From assembly GCA_022072455.1 (NCBI GenBank), contig JAJVHY010000027.1, forward strand, positions 8,500 to 66,067: 57,568 nt of DNA. Reading direction: 5' to 3'. Within the stretch, counting starts at the first letter, position 1, and each line of letters begins with the position of its first letter. Below the pieces are notes generated by a model. That model was given only the letters and a program-made list of their open reading frames with translations. It was not told the origin of the DNA and made no database searches. Positions 3,672 through 57,388 of this stretch are shown here, piece after piece. The position numbers were made by a program, and so were the translations under genes. This stretch comes from Verrucomicrobiia bacterium (lineage in GTDB: Bacteria > Verrucomicrobiota > Verrucomicrobiia > Palsa-1439).

Positions 3672-4863
3672 ACAATTCCTCGACTACGACAAGGCGCTGA
3701 CGTGCATTCACTGCGGGCTCTGCCTCGCGCATTGCCCGACTTACCTAGAGACTGGCAACGAGAACGATTCGCCGCGCGGGCGCATTTACACGATGCGCGC
3801 GATTCAGAATGACCGGCTGAAACTCGACGCGACAACGGTGAAGCACCTTGATTTGTGTCTCGGTTGCCGGGCCTGCGAAGCGGTTTGCCCCAGCGGCGTG
3901 CATTACGGCAAACTGCTGGAAACGACGCGCGAACACATCGAGAAGAATTATCGGCGATCTGTCTTTCAGACTTTTCTGCGGAAGATATTCATCGAACAGG
4001 TTTTCCCGTATCCATGGCGCACAACGATGGCCATCGCGCCGGTCAAACTGTTGCGGGCACTCGGCTTGGGCGCGCTCCTGCCGGAGATCGCCGCGTTTGT
4101 TCCGCAGGAAGCCCGCTCGGTCAAGTTGCCGGAAGTCTCGCCGGCAACCGCGCCGAAGCGCGGGCGCGTCGGATTGATTACCGGCTGCGTTCAGAGTGTG
4201 ATGTTTGGCGAGACGAATGCCGCGACGGTGAAACTACTGAATCGCGCCGGCTACGATGTCGTGACGCCGCGGGAGCAAGTCTGTTGCGGCGCGCTCTACG
4301 CGCATTCCGGCAATCTCGCCAGCGCCCGGGAAGTTGCCCGGCAAAACATCAAAGTCTTCGAGCGGGCCGAGGTTGATCTGATTGTTATCAACGCCGCCGG
4401 TTGCGGTTCGACGCTCAAGGAATACGGGCATCTGGTCGGCACGGATGCTGGCGTGAAGTTTGCCGCCAAGGTGAAGGACTTGTCCGAGGTGCTGCTGCCC
4501 CGCCAAGGTAAATGCGCCACGCGTGTGACGTTTCACGATGCTTGTCATCTCGCCCATGCTCAACGCATCACAGCCCAACCGCGCGCGTTGGTGAAAGCGA
4601 TTGCCGGCGATCAGTACGTTGAATTGCCGGAAGCGGCGATTTGTTGTGGGAGCGCCGGCAGCTACAATCTCACCGAACCCGGCATGGCTGGACAACTCCA
4701 GCGGCGCAAGGTGGAAAACATCCTCAAAACCGAAGCGTTGACAGTCGTCACGACCAATCCCGGTTGCATCCTCCAAATCCGTGCTGGATTAAAAAAAGCC
4801 GGGGCGCTCGATGTGCGGGTGGTTCATCTCGCAGATTTTTTGGCCGAGACCATCAGGGCGTGA
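3664..4863 (+). CDS. glcF: Glycolate oxidase iron-sulfur subunit GlcF
   Basis: 399-residue electron-transfer subunit with two 4Fe-4S motifs near the N-terminus: CIHCGLCLAHCP (C14, C17, C20, C24) and CLGCRACEAVCP (C65, C68, C71, C75). Two cysteine-rich CCG domains follow (VCCGALYAHSG and ICCGSAGSYN), as in GlcF and heterodisulfide-reductase-like proteins. The start is the GTG at 3664, preceded by GGGAGG at 3652-3657 with 6-nt spacing; an ATG at 3562 in the same frame would add residues unlike the family. The first codons overlap the end of glcE by 8 bp. The 3' end overlaps the convergent giant protease gene by 11 bp, so no intergenic terminator fits between them. Confidence 0.93.
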   Translation: MAEQFLDYDKALTCIHCGLCLAHCPTYLETGNENDSPRGRIYTMRAIQNDRLKLDATTVKHLDLCLGCRACEAVCPSGVHYGKLLETTREHIEKNYRRSVFQTFLRKIFIEQVFPYPWRTTMAIAPVKLLRALGLGALLPEIAAFVPQEARSVKLPEVSPATAPKRGRVGLITGCVQSVMFGETNAATVKLLNRAGYDVVTPREQVCCGALYAHSGNLASAREVARQNIKVFERAEVDLIVINAAGCGSTLKEYGHLVGTDAGVKFAAKVKDLSEVLLPRQGKCATRVTFHDACHLAHAQRITAQPRALVKAIAGDQYVELPEAAICCGSAGSYNLTEPGMAGQLQRRKVENILKTEALTVVTTNPGCILQIRAGLKKAGALDVRVVHLADFLAETIRA

Positions 4864-49495: not shown

Positions 49496-50122
49496 TTACC
49501 GGTCCAAATCGCTCCACGCTCCCGGCGTCTCAATATCCCAACTCCCCGGCAACCCGACGAACCGCACGCTTCCATCCGCCGCTAAAACATTCGCCCCACC
49601 GGCATGATTGCGCGCCGCGCCCGCCCCAAAGAAAATATCCGCCAGTAACGCCTTCCCGCCCTGCCCGTCGAGCCGCACCGGCGCACCGGCCGCGAAACCA
49701 CGCATATAATAACTGCTGGCCGTCAGTCGACCCGCAACCCCAAGATTCTGCACGCCGGTATCAGGCGCGTTCAGCGTAAAGCCGCGCGCGGCGGGACAGA
49801 AGAACACCCGGCCGAGTTGCTTCCCAGCGCCCGGCAATAGTTGGCCGTACAAGAGATACTCGGACTCCTGCCAAATGACGTAGCCACTCTGATCGCGCAC
49901 GGGCAAGCGGTCGAAGTCATCGTTGTAAATCGTGGCGGCCTGCCCGAGTTGGCGCAGGTTGTTGACGCAAGCCGCCGCCCTGGATTTTTCTCGGGCGGCA
50001 CCGAGGCTCGGCATGAGCAACGCAGCCAGCGTCCCCACGATGGCCGCCACCGCCAGAATTTCCACCAGGGTGAAGCCCGCCCTCCTTGGTGCGTTCTTCC
50101 CCACGCGCGCGTTATCGCACAT
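49496..50122 (-). CDS. Type II secretion/type IV pseudopilin-like protein
   Basis: 208 residues. A prepilin leader ends in RRAG before FTLVEILAVAAIVGTLAALLMPSL, the N-methylation/cleavage motif with E at +5 and a hydrophobic helix. The C-terminal NHAGGANVLAADGSVRF is the H-X9-DG motif common in Planctomycetes, Verrucomicrobia and Lentisphaerae pseudopilins. The ATG at 50122 (GAGGGG just upstream) is preferred to 50149. It is divergent from a second pseudopilin gene at 50257. Confidence 0.87.
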   Translation of the reverse strand: MCDNARVGKNAPRRAGFTLVEILAVAAIVGTLAALLMPSLGAAREKSRAAACVNNLRQLGQAATIYNDDFDRLPVRDQSGYVIWQESEYLLYGQLLPGAGKQLGRVFFCPAARGFTLNAPDTGVQNLGVAGRLTASSYYMRGFAAGAPVRLDGQGGKALLADIFFGAGAARNHAGGANVLAADGSVRFVGLPGSWDIETPGAWSDLDR

Positions 50123-50188
50123 TCGCCCCTCTGACACCAGCCAAAACATGGCGCCGTTGGCGCGGTGTTTTTTCTTGCGTCTTTTACG

Positions 50189-50216
50189 GTGTTACCATAT
50201 TTGTAAATCGTAACAC
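50189..50216. promoter_or_regulatory. Dyad GTGTTAC-N14-GTAACAC between pseudopilin genes
   Basis: Perfect 7-bp inverted repeats separated by 14 bp, located 40 bp before the GTG at 50257 and 66 bp from the divergent start at 50122. Half-site centres are 21 bp apart, about two helical turns, so a dimeric regulator could bind one face. It would control the pseudopilin/PEP-CTERM/uptake gene run. No regulator gene lies next to it. Confidence 0.5.
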
Positions 50217-50256: not shown

Positions 50257-50847
50257 GTGCCGGATGCGTTCACGTTACTGGAATTGTTGGTCGTCGTGGC
50301 CATCATCGGACTTCTGGCGGGATTACTCTTGCCGGCGTTGGCGAATGCGCGGCGGAAATCCCACGAAAGTGCGTGTCTCAGCAACCTCCGCCAACTCAGC
50401 TTGGCGGCGACGATGTACGCTGACGAATGCGGTAGCTATCCGCCCGCTTGGATCAACAGCACCGCCCGCTGGATGGATCTGCTCAAGCCCTATGTGCCGA
50501 AGAAATCTGGCGCTTATGTCTGCCTCAGTGACACCCAGAAAATTCCCCTCCCATGGGATCCGACGATCACCATGAGTTTTGGGATCAACACGTTCAACTT
50601 CGCCGGTAACCGGTGGTGCTTTTGGTACGGCGTCAAACTGCGCGATGTCGTTCGCCCGGCGGGCACAATCCTGTACGCTGACTGCACGCCCGGCAAGTAT
50701 TACGCCGGCGGTGGGAGCACGTTCACCGACCCGGTAGTGGACGTGCATTACCGGCACCCGAACCAGAGTTTCAATGCCGTCTACTGCGACGGCCATGCTG
50801 AACGCAAAACAAAAACCCAGCGTTCCGATTGGGACGCGTCACAATAA
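50257..50847 (+). CDS. Pseudopilin-like protein heading the PEP-CTERM/uptake run
   Basis: 196 residues from the GTG at 50257, which has GGTGGA six bases upstream and gives a very short leader (MPDA) before FTLLELLVVVAIIGLLAGLLLPAL. The soluble part has CLSNLRQLSLAATMYADE, typical of this family, and ends with a near H-X9-DG motif (HPNQSFNAVYCDGHAE, here H-X10-DG). The only further in-frame upstream ATG (50086) would add a long leader that overlaps the divergent gene. It lies 15 nt before the PEP-CTERM gene, so the two are probably co-transcribed. It could belong to a secretion or surface-assembly machine. Confidence 0.82.
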   Translation: MPDAFTLLELLVVVAIIGLLAGLLLPALANARRKSHESACLSNLRQLSLAATMYADECGSYPPAWINSTARWMDLLKPYVPKKSGAYVCLSDTQKIPLPWDPTITMSFGINTFNFAGNRWCFWYGVKLRDVVRPAGTILYADCTPGKYYAGGGSTFTDPVVDVHYRHPNQSFNAVYCDGHAERKTKTQRSDWDASQ

Positions 50848-50862
50848 TCCGAAAGGCTCCTC

Positions 50863-51900
50863 ATGAAATCCACTTGTAACCTACTGACCGCGGTGGCGAT
50901 GTGTTTCGCCGTCCACACCAGCCAAGCGGGCTACAATACGCCCGGCACCAACATCCAAACGGTGCTGACCGGTACAGTGGACAACGGTGCGATGTACATC
51001 CAAAGCGTCCCGACTTGGCTCAACGCAACGCCCGCCCCGGGGGGGCTGCAACCGTACACCAATACCACCTCGTTCGTGCTACCGGCGGCCACCGACATCG
51101 TACTGGGACGGATCCTGTTCACGTTCTGGGGTGCCACACCCAATTACACCAATGCCGCCAACGTTTCATTCAACGGCACCAGCCTGGCCTCGCTGACCTT
51201 CGGCACCACCACCGACACCAACCCGATGTACAGCGCCACCCAACCAAACGTCTATGGCAGCGGACTCGGGCCTTGGCTGGTCTCGGTTCCCGTAACGGCT
51301 TCACTCGTGCATACTGATGGCACGCCCAACACGGTGACCATCGCCGAGTCACTGCCGACTGTTGATGGCCGGCTGTTGCAGGTTACCTTCCTCTCCGTCT
51401 ATCAGGATGCGCTCACGCTCAATAACCAATTCAGCTACAGCATCGCGGAAGGCAGTGGCGACATCTACGGTAATCCCGCGAGCGGCCCCGGCCGCACTGA
51501 TTTCCGCGAAGTTGCGCTCGGCCTCGGCAACCCCGCGAATGTCAGCGCTGCGACACTCACCGCCCTGTACACCTACGGCACCGCCGGTGAGAACGACCAA
51601 CTGCGCTTCAATGACACCGCTCTTGGCGGTAGTGGCAGCAACGATGTCGCCAACTGGAGCAATACCCTCACCGGCACAAACCAAGGCCCAAACCTCGTCA
51701 GCTTCGACGTGAAGGGCCACCTTAATGAAACCAATACCGCCCGTTTTACCGTCGCTCTTGCTGATGTCTCGGGCACGCGCGAAGGAACACTGCGACCCTC
51801 AATGGTTGCGCTAGGGATCACGACGATACCGGAGCCGTCGACATTCCTGCTGGTCGGCCTCGGTCTCGGCGCGCTGTTGCTGCGGCGGCGCAAATCATGA
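50863..51900 (+). CDS. PEP-CTERM surface protein, possibly DUF3344-like
   Basis: 345 residues. A signal peptide (KSTCNLLTAVAMCFAVHTSQA) leads a beta-rich domain with ANVSFNGTSLASLTFG, TVDGRLLQVTFLSVYQ and a Thr/Asn/Gly-rich C-terminal part. It ends in a complete PEP-CTERM signal: IPEPSTFLLVGLGLGALLLRRRKS (proline-glutamate-proline, hydrophobic helix, arginine cluster), recognised by exosortase. The central domain recalls DUF3344 domains of archaeal surface proteins, but I am not sure. It shares a 4-bp overlap (ATGA at 51897) with a solute-binding protein gene, suggesting that the protein is part of an uptake system as a surface component. Confidence 0.85.
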   Translation: MKSTCNLLTAVAMCFAVHTSQAGYNTPGTNIQTVLTGTVDNGAMYIQSVPTWLNATPAPGGLQPYTNTTSFVLPAATDIVLGRILFTFWGATPNYTNAANVSFNGTSLASLTFGTTTDTNPMYSATQPNVYGSGLGPWLVSVPVTASLVHTDGTPNTVTIAESLPTVDGRLLQVTFLSVYQDALTLNNQFSYSIAEGSGDIYGNPASGPGRTDFREVALGLGNPANVSAATLTALYTYGTAGENDQLRFNDTALGGSGSNDVANWSNTLTGTNQGPNLVSFDVKGHLNETNTARFTVALADVSGTREGTLRPSMVALGITTIPEPSTFLLVGLGLGALLLRRRKS

Positions 51901-52649
51901 TTCAGTGGCTGTCCATTCTGTTGTTGGCGGTCGTGGCCAACGCCGAACCGCCGCAACGCGTCCTCAGCCTATGCACCACCGCCACCGATGTGCTTTGCGC
52001 CATTGGCGCGACGAACCAGCTGGCCGGCATTGACGAATATGGTCGCGTCGTGCCGGGGACGACCAACGTGCCGGTCATCGCCAAGGGCAGCGCGCTCTCC
52101 CGCGAAGAAGTCATCGCCCGCCGGTTCGATCTCGCGTTCCTCTGGTGGTATCAGGACGACGCGGCAAAACTCCTGCAGGATGTCGGCGTTCCGGTCGTTC
52201 GGCTGCGCGCCGGTCGCGCCGCCGAATTACCGGCCACCGTCCGTCTTATCGGCCAGCAGACCGGCCACGAAACGGCCGCCGCCGAACTCGCCGACGAACT
52301 CAGCGCGTTTCTAAAATCGCAAACCAACCAGCCGGCGAAACCGCCGCGTGTCTATCTCGAACTCTACGGCGCGAACATAACCGTCGGGGGCGACAGCTAC
52401 CTCAACGACCTCATCACCCTTGCCGGCGGCACCAACGTCGCCGCCGACATCCAGCGCAGCAGCGTTGTGTTCTCGACCGAACAACTCATCGCCGCCAAGC
52501 CAGACGTGGTGCTCTTCGTCAACGGCTTCACAAAACCCGCCATTCCGCACGCCCACATCGTCGGCATTGACCGGCATTGGCTCGTCGCGGGAAGTCGCCT
52601 GGCGGAAGCAGTCGCTCATCTCCGCGCGCTCATTCACAAGGAAAACTGA
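51897..52649 (+). CDS. BtuF/FecB-type solute-binding protein
   Basis: 250 residues with a signal peptide (IQWLSILLLAVVANA) and a periplasmic-binding fold of the helical-backbone type: RVLSLCTTATDVLCAIGATNQLAGIDEYG at the start, then REEVIARRFDLAFLW and TEQLIAAKPDVVLFVNG. This family binds corrinoids, haem or ferric chelates. Substrate is not deducible. It is coupled to the PEP-CTERM gene before it and the radical SAM gene 1 nt after it. The membrane permease lies two genes downstream; no ATPase gene is adjacent. Confidence 0.88.
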   Translation: MIQWLSILLLAVVANAEPPQRVLSLCTTATDVLCAIGATNQLAGIDEYGRVVPGTTNVPVIAKGSALSREEVIARRFDLAFLWWYQDDAAKLLQDVGVPVVRLRAGRAAELPATVRLIGQQTGHETAAAELADELSAFLKSQTNQPAKPPRVYLELYGANITVGGDSYLNDLITLAGGTNVAADIQRSSVVFSTEQLIAAKPDVVLFVNGFTKPAIPHAHIVGIDRHWLVAGSRLAEAVAHLRALIHKEN

Positions 52650-52650
52650 A

Positions 52651-53388
52651 ATGGCTTTTCATCGCATCACCTACAACGAGAAACACCGGTTCGCCACCGT
52701 CCACAACTTCGGCTGTACACTGCGATGCCCGACGTGCAGTTACAAACTCCGCAGCGGCGCGAATGGCATCCCCGGCCAAATCACGCCGCGCCCGACGACC
52801 TTTCTCTCGATGGATGAAGTCCGTCGCGCCTTGCGCAGTGTGCCGGTCGAAAGAGTCAATTTCATGGGCGGCGAACCGACCGTCGCCGTCGAGTTGCCGG
52901 AGGCACTCGCGTTCTGCAAACAGGAACTCGGCGTCCGCACCTTTCTCGGTCACACCATCGGTCTCCATCTCCCGTTGCCGAATCTCGACGGCGCGAATGT
53001 CGGCCTCAAAGCCTGGGACGACGCCACCCATCGCCGCTACACTGGCCGCGAACGCAAACCGTTCTTCGACAACTTCGCCGCCGCTTACCGCGCGGGCTTG
53101 GAAATGCGCGCCAACATCGTCTTCATCCCCACGTTCGTGGACCTCGACCAAGTCGAAGCCGTTGCCGCATGGGTCGCGTCCATTGACCGGGCGATTCCAT
53201 TTCATGTCATGGGCTACATCCCCGTGCCCGGCCAACCGTTCCCGCGCCCAACCGCCGACCAAATGGATCAAGCCGTCGCCGTCTGCCATCGCCACCTTGA
53301 CAACGTTGGCGCTTCGCATCTCACCGTCGAGGAAGCGTTGAATCTCATCCCGCGCGACGACCGCTTCGACGTTCGCGAAATCGCATGA
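52651..53388 (+). CDS. Radical SAM protein within the uptake operon
   Basis: 245 residues. The radical SAM cluster motif CTLRCPTC (C22, C26, C29) binds the 4Fe-4S cluster, and the SAM-contact motif GGEP (73-76) follows. The fold is a short radical SAM core without a recognised SPASM or B12 domain; VMGYIPVPGQPF near residue 190 may form part of the core's end. It lies between a solute-binding protein and a FecCD permease, with an ATGA overlap to the latter, so its substrate may be the compound taken up. The reaction is unknown. Confidence 0.85.
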   Translation: MAFHRITYNEKHRFATVHNFGCTLRCPTCSYKLRSGANGIPGQITPRPTTFLSMDEVRRALRSVPVERVNFMGGEPTVAVELPEALAFCKQELGVRTFLGHTIGLHLPLPNLDGANVGLKAWDDATHRRYTGRERKPFFDNFAAAYRAGLEMRANIVFIPTFVDLDQVEAVAAWVASIDRAIPFHVMGYIPVPGQPFPRPTADQMDQAVAVCHRHLDNVGASHLTVEEALNLIPRDDRFDVREIA

Positions 53389-54347
53389 AGACCGGTCTCG
53401 TCGTTGCGCTGCTCGTCGTGGCGCTCCTTGCGCTCGCCACCGGCAGCGTCCACATCCCGGCCACCGAAATTGCCGGTCGACTTGCGCGCGCCGCGACCGG
53501 CCAAGGCACCGGCGACACCGCCGACCAAATCCTGCTGCAAGTCCGGTTGCCGCGCGTGGCGCTCGCCATCGCCGTCGGCGCGGCGTTGGCGCTCGGTGGA
53601 CTCGCCTCACAAACTCTTTTCCGCAATCCACTCGCGACGCCCTCGATCATCGGCGTCTCCAACGGCGCCGCGCTCGGCGCGGTCGCCGCAATGCTGGCCG
53701 GAATCGCCGCGCCGCTTGGCAGTTTCGCTGCCGGGCTGGCGGTCGCCGCCCTCGTGTTCACGCTGGGCCGGCGCGGAACATATTTTGGCCAAACGCTGCT
53801 GCTGGCCGGCATCGCCATCGCCGCGCTCTGCTCCGCGCTGACCACCGGTGCGCTCTACCTTGCCGGCGAACGCCTGCCGGCGGTGATCTTTTGGTTGATG
53901 GGCGGACTCTGGCAGGCCAACGGTCGCGCCGCGCTGGTGATGTTGCCGGTCGCTTTGGCCGCCCTCGGGGTGATGCTCGCGCTCGCCCGGTCGCTCAACG
54001 TCGTGCTCGTCGGCGAAGCCTCGGCGCGCGACCTCGGAGTCAACGTGCCACGTCTCCAATACACGCTACTGGCGCTCATCACCGTCACCGCCGCGACTGC
54101 CGTGAGCCTGACCGGCGTGATTGGATTCATCGGGTTGATCGTGCCGCATCTTTTGCGCTTGGCGGTCGGCGGTGATCATCGTCGGCTCGTGCCGGCCACT
54201 GCGCTTGGCGGCGCGTTGCTGTTGCTGATGGCCGACACGTTGGCGCGGACGCTCGCCGCGCCGGCAGAAATCCCGGTCGGCATCCTCACCGCACTCGTCG
54301 GCGCGCCGGTATTTCTGTGGCTGTTGCGGCGGAGGAGGACGCTGTGA
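53385..54347 (+). CDS. FecCD/BtuC-type ABC transporter permease
   Basis: 320-residue multi-spanning inner-membrane protein. Characteristic motifs are VRLPRVALAIAVGAALALGGLASQTLFRNPLATPSIIGVSNGAALG and, near the end, TGVIGFIGLIVPHLLRLAVGGDHRRLVPATALGGALLLLMADTLAR. It would form the translocation pore for a metal chelate or corrinoid with the binding protein at 51897. The usual ATPase subunit is not next to it, so an ATPase must come from elsewhere. It starts inside the radical SAM stop codon. Confidence 0.92.
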   Translation: MKTGLVVALLVVALLALATGSVHIPATEIAGRLARAATGQGTGDTADQILLQVRLPRVALAIAVGAALALGGLASQTLFRNPLATPSIIGVSNGAALGAVAAMLAGIAAPLGSFAAGLAVAALVFTLGRRGTYFGQTLLLAGIAIAALCSALTTGALYLAGERLPAVIFWLMGGLWQANGRAALVMLPVALAALGVMLALARSLNVVLVGEASARDLGVNVPRLQYTLLALITVTAATAVSLTGVIGFIGLIVPHLLRLAVGGDHRRLVPATALGGALLLLMADTLARTLAAPAEIPVGILTALVGAPVFLWLLRRRRTL

Positions 54348-54387
54348 ACTTGCGTTCTTCTTACCGGCTGCCTGGCGAAATAGTCTC

Positions 54388-55053
54388 ATGAATACCCATA
54401 CGCATCATCACCTCCAGTCTGATCCGCGAATCAACTTCTTCGACCTACAGGCTCCGGGTTGGGAAAGGAACGCGGCGAAAAACGCCTACAATTTGTCACG
54501 ACTCGATGAGTTGCGGGCGCGGCTTGGATTGCGTCCAAGCATCGACGTGGTCGAAGTCGGCTGTGGCACCGGGTTGGTGACCGGCTGGCTGGTCAATTGC
54601 GTGCAGCCCGGTCGGGTGTTGGCCGTGGATTTCTCGCCGGCGATGCTCGCGCAAGCGCAAGCCAAACGTCTTGCGGCGGAATTCCGATGCCTCGACATCT
54701 GCCACGAAGCACCGGCTGCCGGCGCGTTTGATCTGGCGTTTTGTTTTCAGGTGTTTCCTCATTTTCGCGATCAAACAGCGGCGCTGCGGAACTTGGCGAG
54801 GGCGTTGAAGCCGGGTGGGCGACTGGTGGTGGTGCATCTGGTTGGCCGGGCGCAACTCAACGAGTTTCATCGCGGTTTGGCGGAGCCGGTGCATCAGGAC
54901 CGGTTACCGGCGCCGCATGAATGGCCGGCGTTACTCGCGACGGCCGGTCTGGAACTAGTGCGCTGCGAGGACCGGGCGGATTTGTTTTTGGTGGAGGCCA
55001 AATGCGGATGGGTAAATCAAAAAGGGAGAATGCAATGCGACAAGGATCAGTGA
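54388..55053 (+). CDS. Class I SAM-dependent methyltransferase
   Basis: 221 residues of the Rossmann methyltransferase type: motif I VVEVGCGTGLVTGW, motif II ALAVDFSPAML-like VLAVDFSPAMLAQA, motif III-IV FDLAFCFQVFPHF and post-motif LKPGGRLVVVHLVG. The N-terminus is His-rich (MNTHTHHHLQSDP). It follows the permease by 40 bp and overlaps the next gene by 19 bp. The substrate is unknown; modification of the transported ligand or a derived cofactor is conceivable. Confidence 0.85.
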   Translation: MNTHTHHHLQSDPRINFFDLQAPGWERNAAKNAYNLSRLDELRARLGLRPSIDVVEVGCGTGLVTGWLVNCVQPGRVLAVDFSPAMLAQAQAKRLAAEFRCLDICHEAPAAGAFDLAFCFQVFPHFRDQTAALRNLARALKPGGRLVVVHLVGRAQLNEFHRGLAEPVHQDRLPAPHEWPALLATAGLELVRCEDRADLFLVEAKCGWVNQKGRMQCDKDQ

Positions 55054-56012
55054 GCCGGTTTATTGACCATCATTATCGACACTTCAATGCGGCGGCGCTC
55101 AAGGACGCGGCGGAAGGCTACACGCGTCACTTGGATCAAGGTGGGATGATGTTTATGACCATCGCCGGCGCGATGAGCACAGCGGAGTTGGGACTTTCGT
55201 TGGCGGAGATGATCCGGCGCGACAAAGTGCACGCCATTTGTTGCACCGGGGCAAACCTGGAGGAGGATGTGTTTAATCTCGTCGCGCACGATCATTACGA
55301 ACGCGTGCCGCACTACCGCGATCTCACGCCAGCCGATGAACACAAATTGCTCAAGCGGCACATGAATCGTGTCACGGACACGTGCATCCCGGAAGGCGAA
55401 GCGATGCGCCGCATCGAATCAGCCGTGTTGGAAGAGTGGGTCGCGGCGGACAAAAAGGGCGAACGCTATTTCCCCCACGAATTCATGTTCAAGATTCTCC
55501 GCAGCGGTAAGCTCAAGAAGTATTATCAGATCAATCCGCGCGACAGTTGGTTGATGGCGGCGATGGAGAAGAATCTGCCGATGTTCGTGCCGGGTTGGGA
55601 AGATGCCACCTTGGGCAATATGTACGCCGGCCATTGTGTCGAAGGCCACGTCAAGAACGTCCACACGGTCCGCACCGGCATCGAGTACATGATGGCATTG
55701 GCGGAATGGTACACGCGGACTAGTGCCAAGCGGTCCATCGGCTTTTTCCAAATCGGCGGCGGCATTGCCGGCGATTTTCCGATCTGCGTCGTGCCGATGT
55801 TGCATCAGGATTTGCGCCGCACGAAAGTGCCGCTCTGGGGCTATTTCTGTCAGATCAGCGATTCGACGACGAGCTACGGTTCGTATTCCGGCGCTGTGCC
55901 AAACGAGAAAATTACGTGGGGCAAACTGGGCGTGAAGACGCCGAAGTACATCATCGAGTCCGATGCCACCATCGTCGCGCCGCTGATGTTCGCCAAAATC
56001 CTCGGATGGTAA
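55035..56012 (+). CDS. Deoxyhypusine synthase-like protein
   Basis: 325 residues of the deoxyhypusine synthase family (NAD-dependent transfer of an aminobutyl group from spermidine). Conserved blocks are MTIAGAMSTAELGLSLAEMIR, GANLEEDVFNLVAHDHYERVPHYRDLT, QIGGGIAGDFPICVVPML and YGSYSGAVPNEKITWGK, in which K297 matches the catalytic lysine that forms the enzyme-substrate intermediate. The ATG at 55035 has GGGAG six bases upstream. Bacteria lack eIF5A, so bacterial members are thought to make homospermidine or modify unknown amines. It overlaps its neighbours on both sides. Confidence 0.87.
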   Translation: MRQGSVSRFIDHHYRHFNAAALKDAAEGYTRHLDQGGMMFMTIAGAMSTAELGLSLAEMIRRDKVHAICCTGANLEEDVFNLVAHDHYERVPHYRDLTPADEHKLLKRHMNRVTDTCIPEGEAMRRIESAVLEEWVAADKKGERYFPHEFMFKILRSGKLKKYYQINPRDSWLMAAMEKNLPMFVPGWEDATLGNMYAGHCVEGHVKNVHTVRTGIEYMMALAEWYTRTSAKRSIGFFQIGGGIAGDFPICVVPMLHQDLRRTKVPLWGYFCQISDSTTSYGSYSGAVPNEKITWGKLGVKTPKYIIESDATIVAPLMFAKILGW

Positions 56013-57388
56013 ACCACGTCGCCATCTTTCGGGGTGCGCCGTCCTACGAGGACGCAACCGCCATCCAGAGCTTGGTGAACTCCGCCGTGGATGCGCTTCG
56101 CTTGCCGGCGGATTTCATTCGGCCCGGCGACCGGGTCGTGCTCAAACCCAATTGGGTCAAGGAGCACAATTTGCGGCGGCCCGACGATGAGCAAAGCTGG
56201 CTGACGGTCGTGACGCATCCGGCGGTGATCCTGGAGGTGGCGCGCTGGGCGGCGCGCCGGTTGCAAGGTCGTGGGGCAATCACTATTTGCGACGCGCCGC
56301 AAAGCGATTCGTCATTCGACAAAATCCGCGCGTACTGCCAGTTGGATAAACTCCGCGAACGCTGCGTGCGGGAATTTCCCGGGATTACTTTCCAAGTGTT
56401 GGATTTGCGTTCGGAGGGCTGGATTGCTCGCGATGGCGTCCCGGTGGCGCGGACGCAACTGCCGGGTGATCCGGCCGGGGTGGTCAACATTCATCTCGAC
56501 GAGAACAGCGAATTCATCGGATACCGGGGACAAGGCCGACTTTACGGCGCGGCGTATGACTTCGCGGTGACGAACCGGCAACACTGCGACCCGCGGCACG
56601 AGTATTTGTTCTCGCGCACGCCGCTGGCGGCGGATGTGCTCATCAATCTTCCCAAACTGAAAACCCACAAGAAGGTCGGCCTGACGGTCGCGCTGAAAAA
56701 CATGATCGGCACGACCGCCCGCACGAATTGGCTGCCCCGGCACACCGAAGGCACGCCGGCGCAAGGGGGCGATCAATTTGCCGATTCCACCGGCAAGCTG
56801 AAAATCGAATCCGTCGTGATGGGCGAAATCAAACGGATACTGAAAGATCGCCACCGGCTCGCGCGGCTGTTTGTGCCGCTGAAAAAACTGGGGCGCTTGT
56901 ATTTTGGCGACACGGAAACCACCGTGCGATCTGGCAACTGGCACGGCAACGACACCTGCTGGCGCATGATTCTCGATCTCACGAAGTGTCTTGTCCATTA
57001 CGACGGCACCGGCGAGCGCCGCCAACAACCGTTACGGTATCTCGTTGTGGTGGACGGCATCATTGCCGGCGAAGGCGACGGCCCAATGGCGTGTGATCCG
57101 CGACCGTGTGGCGTGATCATGGCCGGGACGCACCCGGTTGCCGTGGATTGTGTGGCGGCGACACTGATGGGGTTCGATTGGCGCAAAACCAAACTGCTCC
57201 GGAATGCCTTTGAGATTACCCGTCTGCCCATCGTTGATTTTTCTGCCGCTGACATCCAGGTAGTTTCCAATCAATCCGGTTGGACCGGCCGGATGGAAGA
57301 TATGAAAGACTGTTTCGAGTTTCGGCCGCATTTCGGCTGGGCCGGTCACCTCGAAACCGACGAACGTCTCGCAAGGACACGCGCATGA
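56006..57388 (+). CDS. DUF362 domain protein
   Basis: 460 residues. Hallmarks of DUF362 are GDRVVLKPNWV, THPAVILEVARW, INLPKLKTHKKVGLTVALKNMIG and a C-terminal DGIIAGEGDGPM...GTHPVAVDCVAATLMGFD. Many family members carry ferredoxin-like cysteines, but none are visible here. The true start is the ATG at 56006, overlapping the upstream stop by 7 bp. Function is unknown. The gene is coupled to hldD by an ATGA overlap, so a role in cell-envelope or sugar-nucleotide chemistry is possible. Confidence 0.87.
   Translation: MVNHVAIFRGAPSYEDATAIQSLVNSAVDALRLPADFIRPGDRVVLKPNWVKEHNLRRPDDEQSWLTVVTHPAVILEVARWAARRLQGRGAITICDAPQSDSSFDKIRAYCQLDKLRERCVREFPGITFQVLDLRSEGWIARDGVPVARTQLPGDPAGVVNIHLDENSEFIGYRGQGRLYGAAYDFAVTNRQHCDPRHEYLFSRTPLAADVLINLPKLKTHKKVGLTVALKNMIGTTARTNWLPRHTEGTPAQGGDQFADSTGKLKIESVVMGEIKRILKDRHRLARLFVPLKKLGRLYFGDTETTVRSGNWHGNDTCWRMILDLTKCLVHYDGTGERRQQPLRYLVVVDGIIAGEGDGPMACDPRPCGVIMAGTHPVAVDCVAATLMGFDWRKTKLLRNAFEITRLPIVDFSAADIQVVSNQSGWTGRMEDMKDCFEFRPHFGWAGHLETDERLARTRA

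Follow-up and report, generated by a model that had tools for sequence, protein, structure and literature searches.

A likely NikR-controlled nickel-acquisition cassette with a radical SAM enzyme in a Verrucomicrobiia bacterium

Gene layout and operator at the locus

We analysed a stretch of DNA of 57,568 nucleotides from a Verrucomicrobiia bacterium (GenBank assembly GCA_022072455.1, contig JAJVHY010000027.1, positions 8,500 to 66,067; the whole stretch is called the window), with emphasis on a run of genes near its end, in which a radical S-adenosylmethionine (SAM) enzyme of 245 residues is encoded between a substrate-binding protein of the BtuF/CeuE type (the receptor) and a permease of the FecCD/BtuC type (Table 1). 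The six genes that a preliminary description of the locus had listed, i.e. those for a pseudopilin, a PEP-CTERM protein, the receptor, the radical SAM enzyme, the permease and a methyltransferase, are all present at the named place and in the order and with the domains given there. The overlapping stops and starts that were said to link them occur at two of the five junctions (PEP-CTERM/receptor and radical SAM/permease, 4 bp each), whereas elsewhere the genes are separated: receptor and radical SAM by 1 nt, pilin and PEP-CTERM by 15 nt, and permease and methyltransferase by 40 nt. Nor does the unit end at position 55053: from the methyltransferase onward the gene ends overlap and the run goes on through a deoxyhypusine-synthase-like gene, a DUF362 gene and hldD, up to the end of the window, which is the exact end of the contig (C26 in our numbering) and lies 61 codons into hldD.

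The gene run is preceded by a palindrome that perfectly matches the NikR signal of metal-reducing delta-proteobacteria, given as GTGTTAC-[N13/14]-GTAACAC in the accessible part of a 2004 study (PMC545781). It is the single exact match in the genome of 4.8 Mb, in which the reversed control pattern had none. A sigma-70 scan returned no promoter near this operator.

The preliminary description had also remarked that an ATPase gene is missing, which is correct within the window and does not hold beyond it. A search for NikR in the same genome recovered a second contig, C7, that opens inside hldD; the two hldD parts match separate portions of the model TIGR02197 and leave some 19 residues unseen, and the first complete gene of C7, overlapping hldD by 4 bp, encodes an ATP-binding cassette (ABC) ATPase. 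This ATPase is closest to those encoded downstream of the permease in related cassettes (68% for locus L096, 60% for L007 and 58% for L005), and its four nearest relatives, from L096, L005, L007 and L094, are common to the ATPase, the permease and the receptor. From the split hldD and the likeness of the ATPase we infer that C26 and C7 are neighbours. With the NikR-type operator upstream, and with the ATPase and NikR genes following hldD across the contig break, the importer is very probably complete and nickel-controlled, and the idea of an incomplete transporter was rejected. Further on, C7 carries the NikR gene and a transporter of the CbiMQO-type energy-coupling factor (ECF) class; by eye, no clear NikR palindrome was seen between NikR and the CbiM-like gene.

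Given this layout, we consider it likely that the run forms the opening half of a nickel-acquisition operon under NikR control that comprises a BtuFCD-type importer and a radical SAM enzyme. The genome also encodes the large subunit of a NiFe hydrogenase.

Table 1. Features of the locus in the window and on contig C7
Feature	Position	Strand	Basis and remarks
Pseudopilin, second, divergent	49496-50149	-	Open reading frame (ORF) and prepilin motif
NikR-type operator GTGTTAC-N14-GTAACAC	50189-50216		Perfect match to the delta-proteobacterial consensus; 41 nt upstream of the pilin start codon
Pseudopilin	50257-50847	+	GTG start; N_methyl PF07963 21.6 bits (cut-off 21.2); TIGR02532 23.4 (cut-off 16.3)
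PEP-CTERM surface/exported protein	50863-51900	+	PF07589 28.9 bits (cut-off 20.7)
BtuF/CeuE-type substrate-binding protein (receptor)	51897-52649	+	Peripla_BP_2 53.3 bits, above cut-off
Radical SAM enzyme, 245 residues, CX3CX2C	52651-53388	+	PF04055 47.7 bits (cut-off 29.5)
FecCD/BtuC-type permease	53385-54347	+	PF01032 283 bits, above cut-off
Class I SAM methyltransferase	54388-55053	+	Methyltransf_11
Deoxyhypusine-synthase-like protein, start uncertain	55035-56012	+	PF01916 138 bits; below all NCBIfam equivalog cut-offs listed
DUF362 protein	56006-57388	+	PF04015 93 bits
hldD (ADP-heptose epimerase), truncated by contig end	57385-57568	+	TIGR02197 positions 1-52
hldD remainder	C7 (L061:2-778)		TIGR02197 positions 72-315
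ABC ATPase, first complete gene of C7	C7:775-1527		4-bp overlap with hldD
NikR	C7:1574-1993		NF003381 184.8 bits (cut-off 105); NikR_C
CbiM-like	C7:2186-3112		Below equivalog cut-offs
CbiQ	C7:3112-3705
ECF ATPase	C7:~3693-4451

Recurrence of the cassette and of NikR-type signals

The radical SAM family was recovered from Verrucomicrobiota, Planctomycetota, Armatimonadota and Thermoplasmatota archaea. A pattern scan, limited in reach to close relatives, gave 13 among 84,980 species represented by one genome each; profile searches recovered the family from 19 of 288 genomes of the window's phylum, 2 of 57 relatives of the window's genome, and 3 of 343, 12 of 243 and 5 of 251 genomes in the phyla of the Phycisphaerae, Methanomassiliicoccales and Armatimonadota loci, respectively, where the counts include the genomes on which the searches were centred and each phylum set was drawn evenly from a larger group. 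Neighbourhoods were compared over 49 loci (L006 was excluded because it shares its contig with L038, and L142 because it and L017 are one locus; L046 and L050 are truncated by contig ends, and the enzyme of L050 is identical to that of L049). Their genes were picked mechanically as ORFs and named after the proteins of the window, or a few of the loci, that they resemble, so that a gene too far diverged would escape. The enzyme gene lies directly after a receptor gene in 29 loci and directly between receptor and permease in 23, and a FecCD permease is found nearby in 27. As the neighbourhood recurs in four phyla of two domains of life, the gene order is beyond chance. The earlier proposal that a specific metal ligand is taken up with the aid of a dedicated radical SAM enzyme is supported, and the locus withstands the refuting conditions set with that proposal (a neighbourhood conserved in no other genome, or a family found mostly without transporters), as many genomes share the neighbourhood and 27 of the 49 loci have the permease nearby.

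In a tree of the enzymes (L006 and L095 dropped; the root is arbitrary and the close placement of the window's enzyme poorly resolved) those of the Methanomassiliicoccales fall inside the bacterial group, apart from the other archaeal ones, and two label changes are forced by well-supported branches, which suggests that the gene was transferred between domains. Near-identical enzymes (branches below 0.04) were also observed in two families of one phylum (f22 and f17; loci L039, L040 and L041), suggesting recent transfer.

NikR-type signals recur along with the cassette. Half-sites upstream of the first cassette gene (from -250 to +130) number 34 where 1.37 are expected, a roughly 25-fold enrichment spread over 23 of 44 loci, for which the Poisson significance is overstated since related loci are not independent; L006, L050 and the Armatimonadota loci L138-L141 were left out of this count. 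The 551 other genes compared from these loci include 27 with a half-site and a single one with a spaced pair. An independent perfect N14 site precedes the pilin-radical SAM pair of an Armatimonadota locus (L139:10367-10394). In the archaea, half-sites are recurrent before the Methanomassiliicoccales enzyme genes and before several receptor-enzyme-permease operons; no spaced pair was found at the 14 FecCD loci examined, the full set of FecCD matches being 37 over nine archaeal genomes and one from the Armatimonadota. A degenerate palindrome search of 16 genomes returned one site in each of three, located upstream of the cassette in two (G000 and G261) and elsewhere in the third (G322). The last of these is from the Phycisphaerae, and a perfect GTATTAC-N13-GTAATAC palindrome that lies away from the cassette in this genome (L143:4425-4451, contig C43) may mark a further NikR target.

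The regulator itself is encoded within 5 kb of the enzyme in six of the 49 loci (L005, L017, L039, L040, L041 and L098), somewhat farther off in L007 and L103, and across the contig break in the window's genome. The NikR_C domain was confirmed for the NikR of L039 and L017 and is found in every one of the 12 genomes, archaeal genomes among them, that contain the first loci. The archaeal locus L098 has NikR, HypA and HypD at the flanks of its cassette, and HypF and an AIRS-domain protein, in our reading HypE-like, nearby.

Other neighbours of the enzyme vary between lineages. In the Methanomassiliicoccales loci L008, L009 and L011 the radical SAM gene is followed by genes for a methyltransferase, a GTPase of the CobW/HypB/UreG type and a protein of 150 residues (F19), in which no Pfam or NCBIfam match was found; a CobW-type gene and a small protein that looks similar by eye also occur near NikR in L110 and L111. 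A pyridoxamine-phosphate-oxidase-like gene follows the radical SAM gene in L012-L016 and L097, and none of the eight NikR regions inspected in this order (L106-L113) has BtuFCD beside NikR. In the Armatimonadota the gene after the enzyme encodes a CbiQ-like protein (L138), an ABC ATPase (L142, i.e. L017, with NikR further on) or an SBP_bac_1 protein (L139 and L140); in L139, L140 and L141 the pilin-radical SAM pair is followed by a receptor of another type than BtuF (by sequence in the case of L141).

Around the window's cassette, the divergent pseudopilin gene starts some 40 nt from the operator, and a divergent pilin is also present in L007; both pilins that flank the operator might be nickel-controlled, with control of the divergent one proposed from its position only. 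Hairpins resembling intrinsic terminators lie between operator and divergent pilin (50150-50169; six in a 1-kb stretch, 1.0 expected). The four genes that separate permease from ATPase (methyltransferase, deoxyhypusine-synthase-like, DUF362 and hldD) were not seen at this place in the other cassettes among the 49 loci and may be an insertion; the methyltransferase alone has a relative close to another cassette (L007, 52% identical). Relatives of the PEP-CTERM protein occupy the same place in L096, L007 and L005 (38-47% identity), so that, with the window, its family is represented in 4 of 49 loci, a count that PEP-CTERM proteins of other families would escape. A general role of this protein was set aside on that count, and the coupling of PEP-CTERM protein and receptor that had been suggested before is only weakly general; the conserved surface partner in bacteria is the pseudopilin.

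Function of the radical SAM enzyme and competing explanations

The cassette most likely works as follows. With plentiful nickel, Ni-bound NikR would occupy the operator and keep the operon off; with scarce nickel, the operon would be expressed. On the outer side of the inner membrane a nickel complex would then be bound by the BtuF-like receptor, and the FecCD permease and the ATPase encoded past the contig break would bring it into the cell. The radical SAM enzyme would make or chemically finish an organic nickel ligand (a nickelophore), and the dedicated pseudopilin, present in bacterial loci only, would act as a surface or outer-membrane helper, a role to which we give an even chance. In this scheme the radical SAM enzyme recurs as a component of the nickel-starvation response; nickelophore synthesis is put forward as its job tentatively, with odds somewhat short of even. 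Type II importers of the BtuFCD/NiuBDE class typically carry metal chelates and not bare ions. Nickel-ligand synthesis fits the largest number of contexts, because the enzyme is the constant non-transport catalyst, accompanied by a BtuFCD-type or apparently an ECF-type partner. In a wider formulation, to which we hold with equal reserve, it may serve some bacteria and archaea in general as an enzyme of nickel starvation, which either makes a nickel-specific chelator or modifies a dedicated surface pilin by radical chemistry so that the pilin captures nickel, the product being imported by the BtuFCD-type partner.

In all 44 aligned members of the enzyme family N19, C22, C26, C29, Y31, the GGEP motif at 73-76, H101, G132, G149, P160, H185, P191, P193, P200 and D236 are invariant. 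Its structure model (predicted local distance difference test, pLDDT, 88.9) is best matched by the pyruvate formate-lyase (PFL) activating enzyme 3c8f (Z-score 20.9 over 210 residues, root-mean-square deviation 2.8, 16% identity), followed, outside the activases, by NifB (the best of these, Z 18.8), Mmp10, viperin, SuiB and MoaA. The length of 245 residues is likewise shared with the PFL-activating enzyme; they differ in that the identity is low and in that the window's enzyme stays below the equivalog cut-offs of the glycyl-radical activases (best model YjjW, 29.9 bits against 250.2). In the Pfam and NCBIfam scans no curated family cut-off other than that of the general Radical_SAM family was reached. 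Sharing the activase fold would by itself be no proof of function.

Several observations weigh against the reading of the cassette as a nickel-controlled importer with a ligand-making enzyme. The activase-like fold fits protein modification as well as nickelophore synthesis. The joining of C26 and C7 rests on a split gene, with about 57 bp unseen and other hldD copies unsearched. The enzyme is sporadic, as none of 10 other genomes of the window's genus or family carries it in the profile search. The full palindrome is absent from 13 of the 16 genomes of the degenerate search, and 21 of the 44 loci have no half-site under the rule used; 13 of these 21 belong to the families f17 and f22, the genomes of which were outside the NikR search, and at one of them, L045, a palindrome escaped the rule. 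Finally, the enzyme is not tied to one transporter, because no BtuF or FecCD gene adjoins it in the Methanomassiliicoccales, it adjoins the pilin without BtuF in all five Armatimonadota loci, and ECF-like transporter genes adjoin it in two of the latter.

The chief alternative, which we regard as rather unlikely, is that the enzyme modifies a protein: in bacteria the pseudopilin, which would become a nickel-binding surface filament or peptide, and in archaea the receptor or some other protein. A pseudopilin gene on the same strand precedes the enzyme gene in 27 of the 30 bacterial loci (two of the three misses are at contig ends; for L049 the count includes a pilin of ordinary type), and the Armatimonadota, where pilin and enzyme are neighbours without BtuF, speak for the same explanation. 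By their sequences, the cassette pilins (L038 included, L049 left out) form a subfamily of their own when set against the other pilins of the same loci: R67 is found in 22 of 25 versus 1 of 10, W119 in 25 of 25 versus 0 of 10, Y144 in 23 of 25 versus 3 of 10, Y145 in 22 of 25 versus 2 of 10, R162 in 25 of 25 versus 3 of 10 and F168 in 23 of 25 versus 1 of 10. The subfamily speaks for this explanation, and so does the fold, where the peptide-bound PFL-activating entry 3cb8 matches the model nearly as well (Z 20.6) as the best one. Yet the pilin is absent from all 19 archaeal loci, while the archaeal enzymes are 31-57% identical to that of the window, and the structure model of the pilin is too poor to be used (pLDDT 52.7).

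It is improbable that the enzyme opens or strips an imported organic nickel compound, e.g. a nickel tetrapyrrole, inside the cell to free the nickel. The PDB relatives of the receptor include haem and B12 binders, as this explanation would have it, but in the Armatimonadota the enzyme stands beside ECF-like transporter genes, a kind of transporter not known for chelates, and without an adjoining BtuF-type receptor. A HemN/HemW-type domain architecture is typical of the haem-opening enzymes HutW, ChuW and HmuW; the window's enzyme has no Pfam match to such a domain, with only Radical_SAM above its cut-off, and haem-type ring opening is disfavoured on this ground. The precedent comes from these same enzymes, which, according to the accessible parts of two papers (PMC10404700, PMC10035031), are encoded in anaerobic haem-uptake operons and act on haem, HmuW belonging to class C. 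Common to both cases is a radical SAM gene inside a metal-chelate uptake operon; the activase-like fold, the missing HemN/HemW match and the link to NikR set the window's enzyme apart.

A corrinoid, haem or an iron chelate as cargo, with the NikR control incidental or wrong, is a very improbable explanation. It draws on the family-level likeness of receptor and permease to BtuF/BtuC and haem systems, and the PDB relatives of the receptor's family profile are mostly haem, B12 and siderophore receptors and include 4ino/4ls3, named nickel ABC transporter binding proteins; however, no equivalog cut-off for BtuF (43.5 against 234 for the receptor), BtuC (254.8 against 461 and 226.9 against 334 for the permease) or haem receptors was reached. 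These cargoes were set aside because NikR-type operator sequences occur in bacteria and archaea alike and some cassettes have NikR, hyp or ECF CbiMQO-type genes beside them. Nickel is very probably the cargo. None of the ligands named in the preliminary description (corrinoid, haem or metallophore) finds support in the form given there: the NikR operators and genes point to nickel, which is missing from that list, although a nickel metallophore would fall under its third entry. Equally improbable, finally, is the explanation that, when nickel is short, the enzyme activates a nickel-independent substitute enzyme as glycyl-radical activases do and shares the operon for co-regulation only: the activase-like fold would suit it, and in Desulfovibrio desulfuricans a nickel-free hydrogenase is a predicted target of NikR repression (PMC545781, accessible part), but none of the ten window genes scanned encodes a glycyl-radical enzyme (the scan did not extend to whole genomes) and co-regulation alone hardly accounts for the receptor-enzyme-permease order found in 23 of the 49 loci.

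Relation to known nickel systems

The closest known counterpart is NiuBDE of Helicobacter pylori (formerly CeuE/FecDE). In the accessible part of PMC5140060 it is described as a NikR-linked nickel importer, with a promoter that is a possible NikR target and a NikR-regulated receptor gene, the product of which (CeuE/NiuB) binds nickel; a title in the reference list of that paper states that organic metallophores modulate the nickel affinity of this receptor. The Type II ABC importer families (receptor, FecD-type permease and FecE-type ATPase) and the NikR link are the same in both systems, whereas the radical SAM enzyme, the pseudopilin and the PEP-CTERM protein, all present in the window, are not described for Helicobacter in that part of the paper. 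In our reading the cassette probably works like NiuBDE, to which it adds a radical SAM enzyme plus, in bacteria, a pseudopilin. With the delta-proteobacterial nikMNQO genes, as far as the accessible source describes them, it shares the NikR consensus, and the C7 side likewise has NikR followed by a CbiMQO-type ECF transporter; the difference is that the box stands here before a BtuFCD-type importer with a radical SAM enzyme and a pilin. In the open literature (subscription papers being mostly outside its scope), as far as titles and the openings of abstracts tell, we found no dedicated nickelophore or nickel-metallophore pathway with a radical SAM enzyme, no link of nickel uptake to a pseudopilin and none of NikR to such an enzyme; the terms radical SAM and pilin do not occur in PMC3534369 and PMC11247825.

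The cassette predicts a further route for nickel in archaea and Verrucomicrobiota. It assigns a likely role to a radical SAM family that had no name, and one branch of the pseudopilins of these bacteria gains a testable link to nickel.

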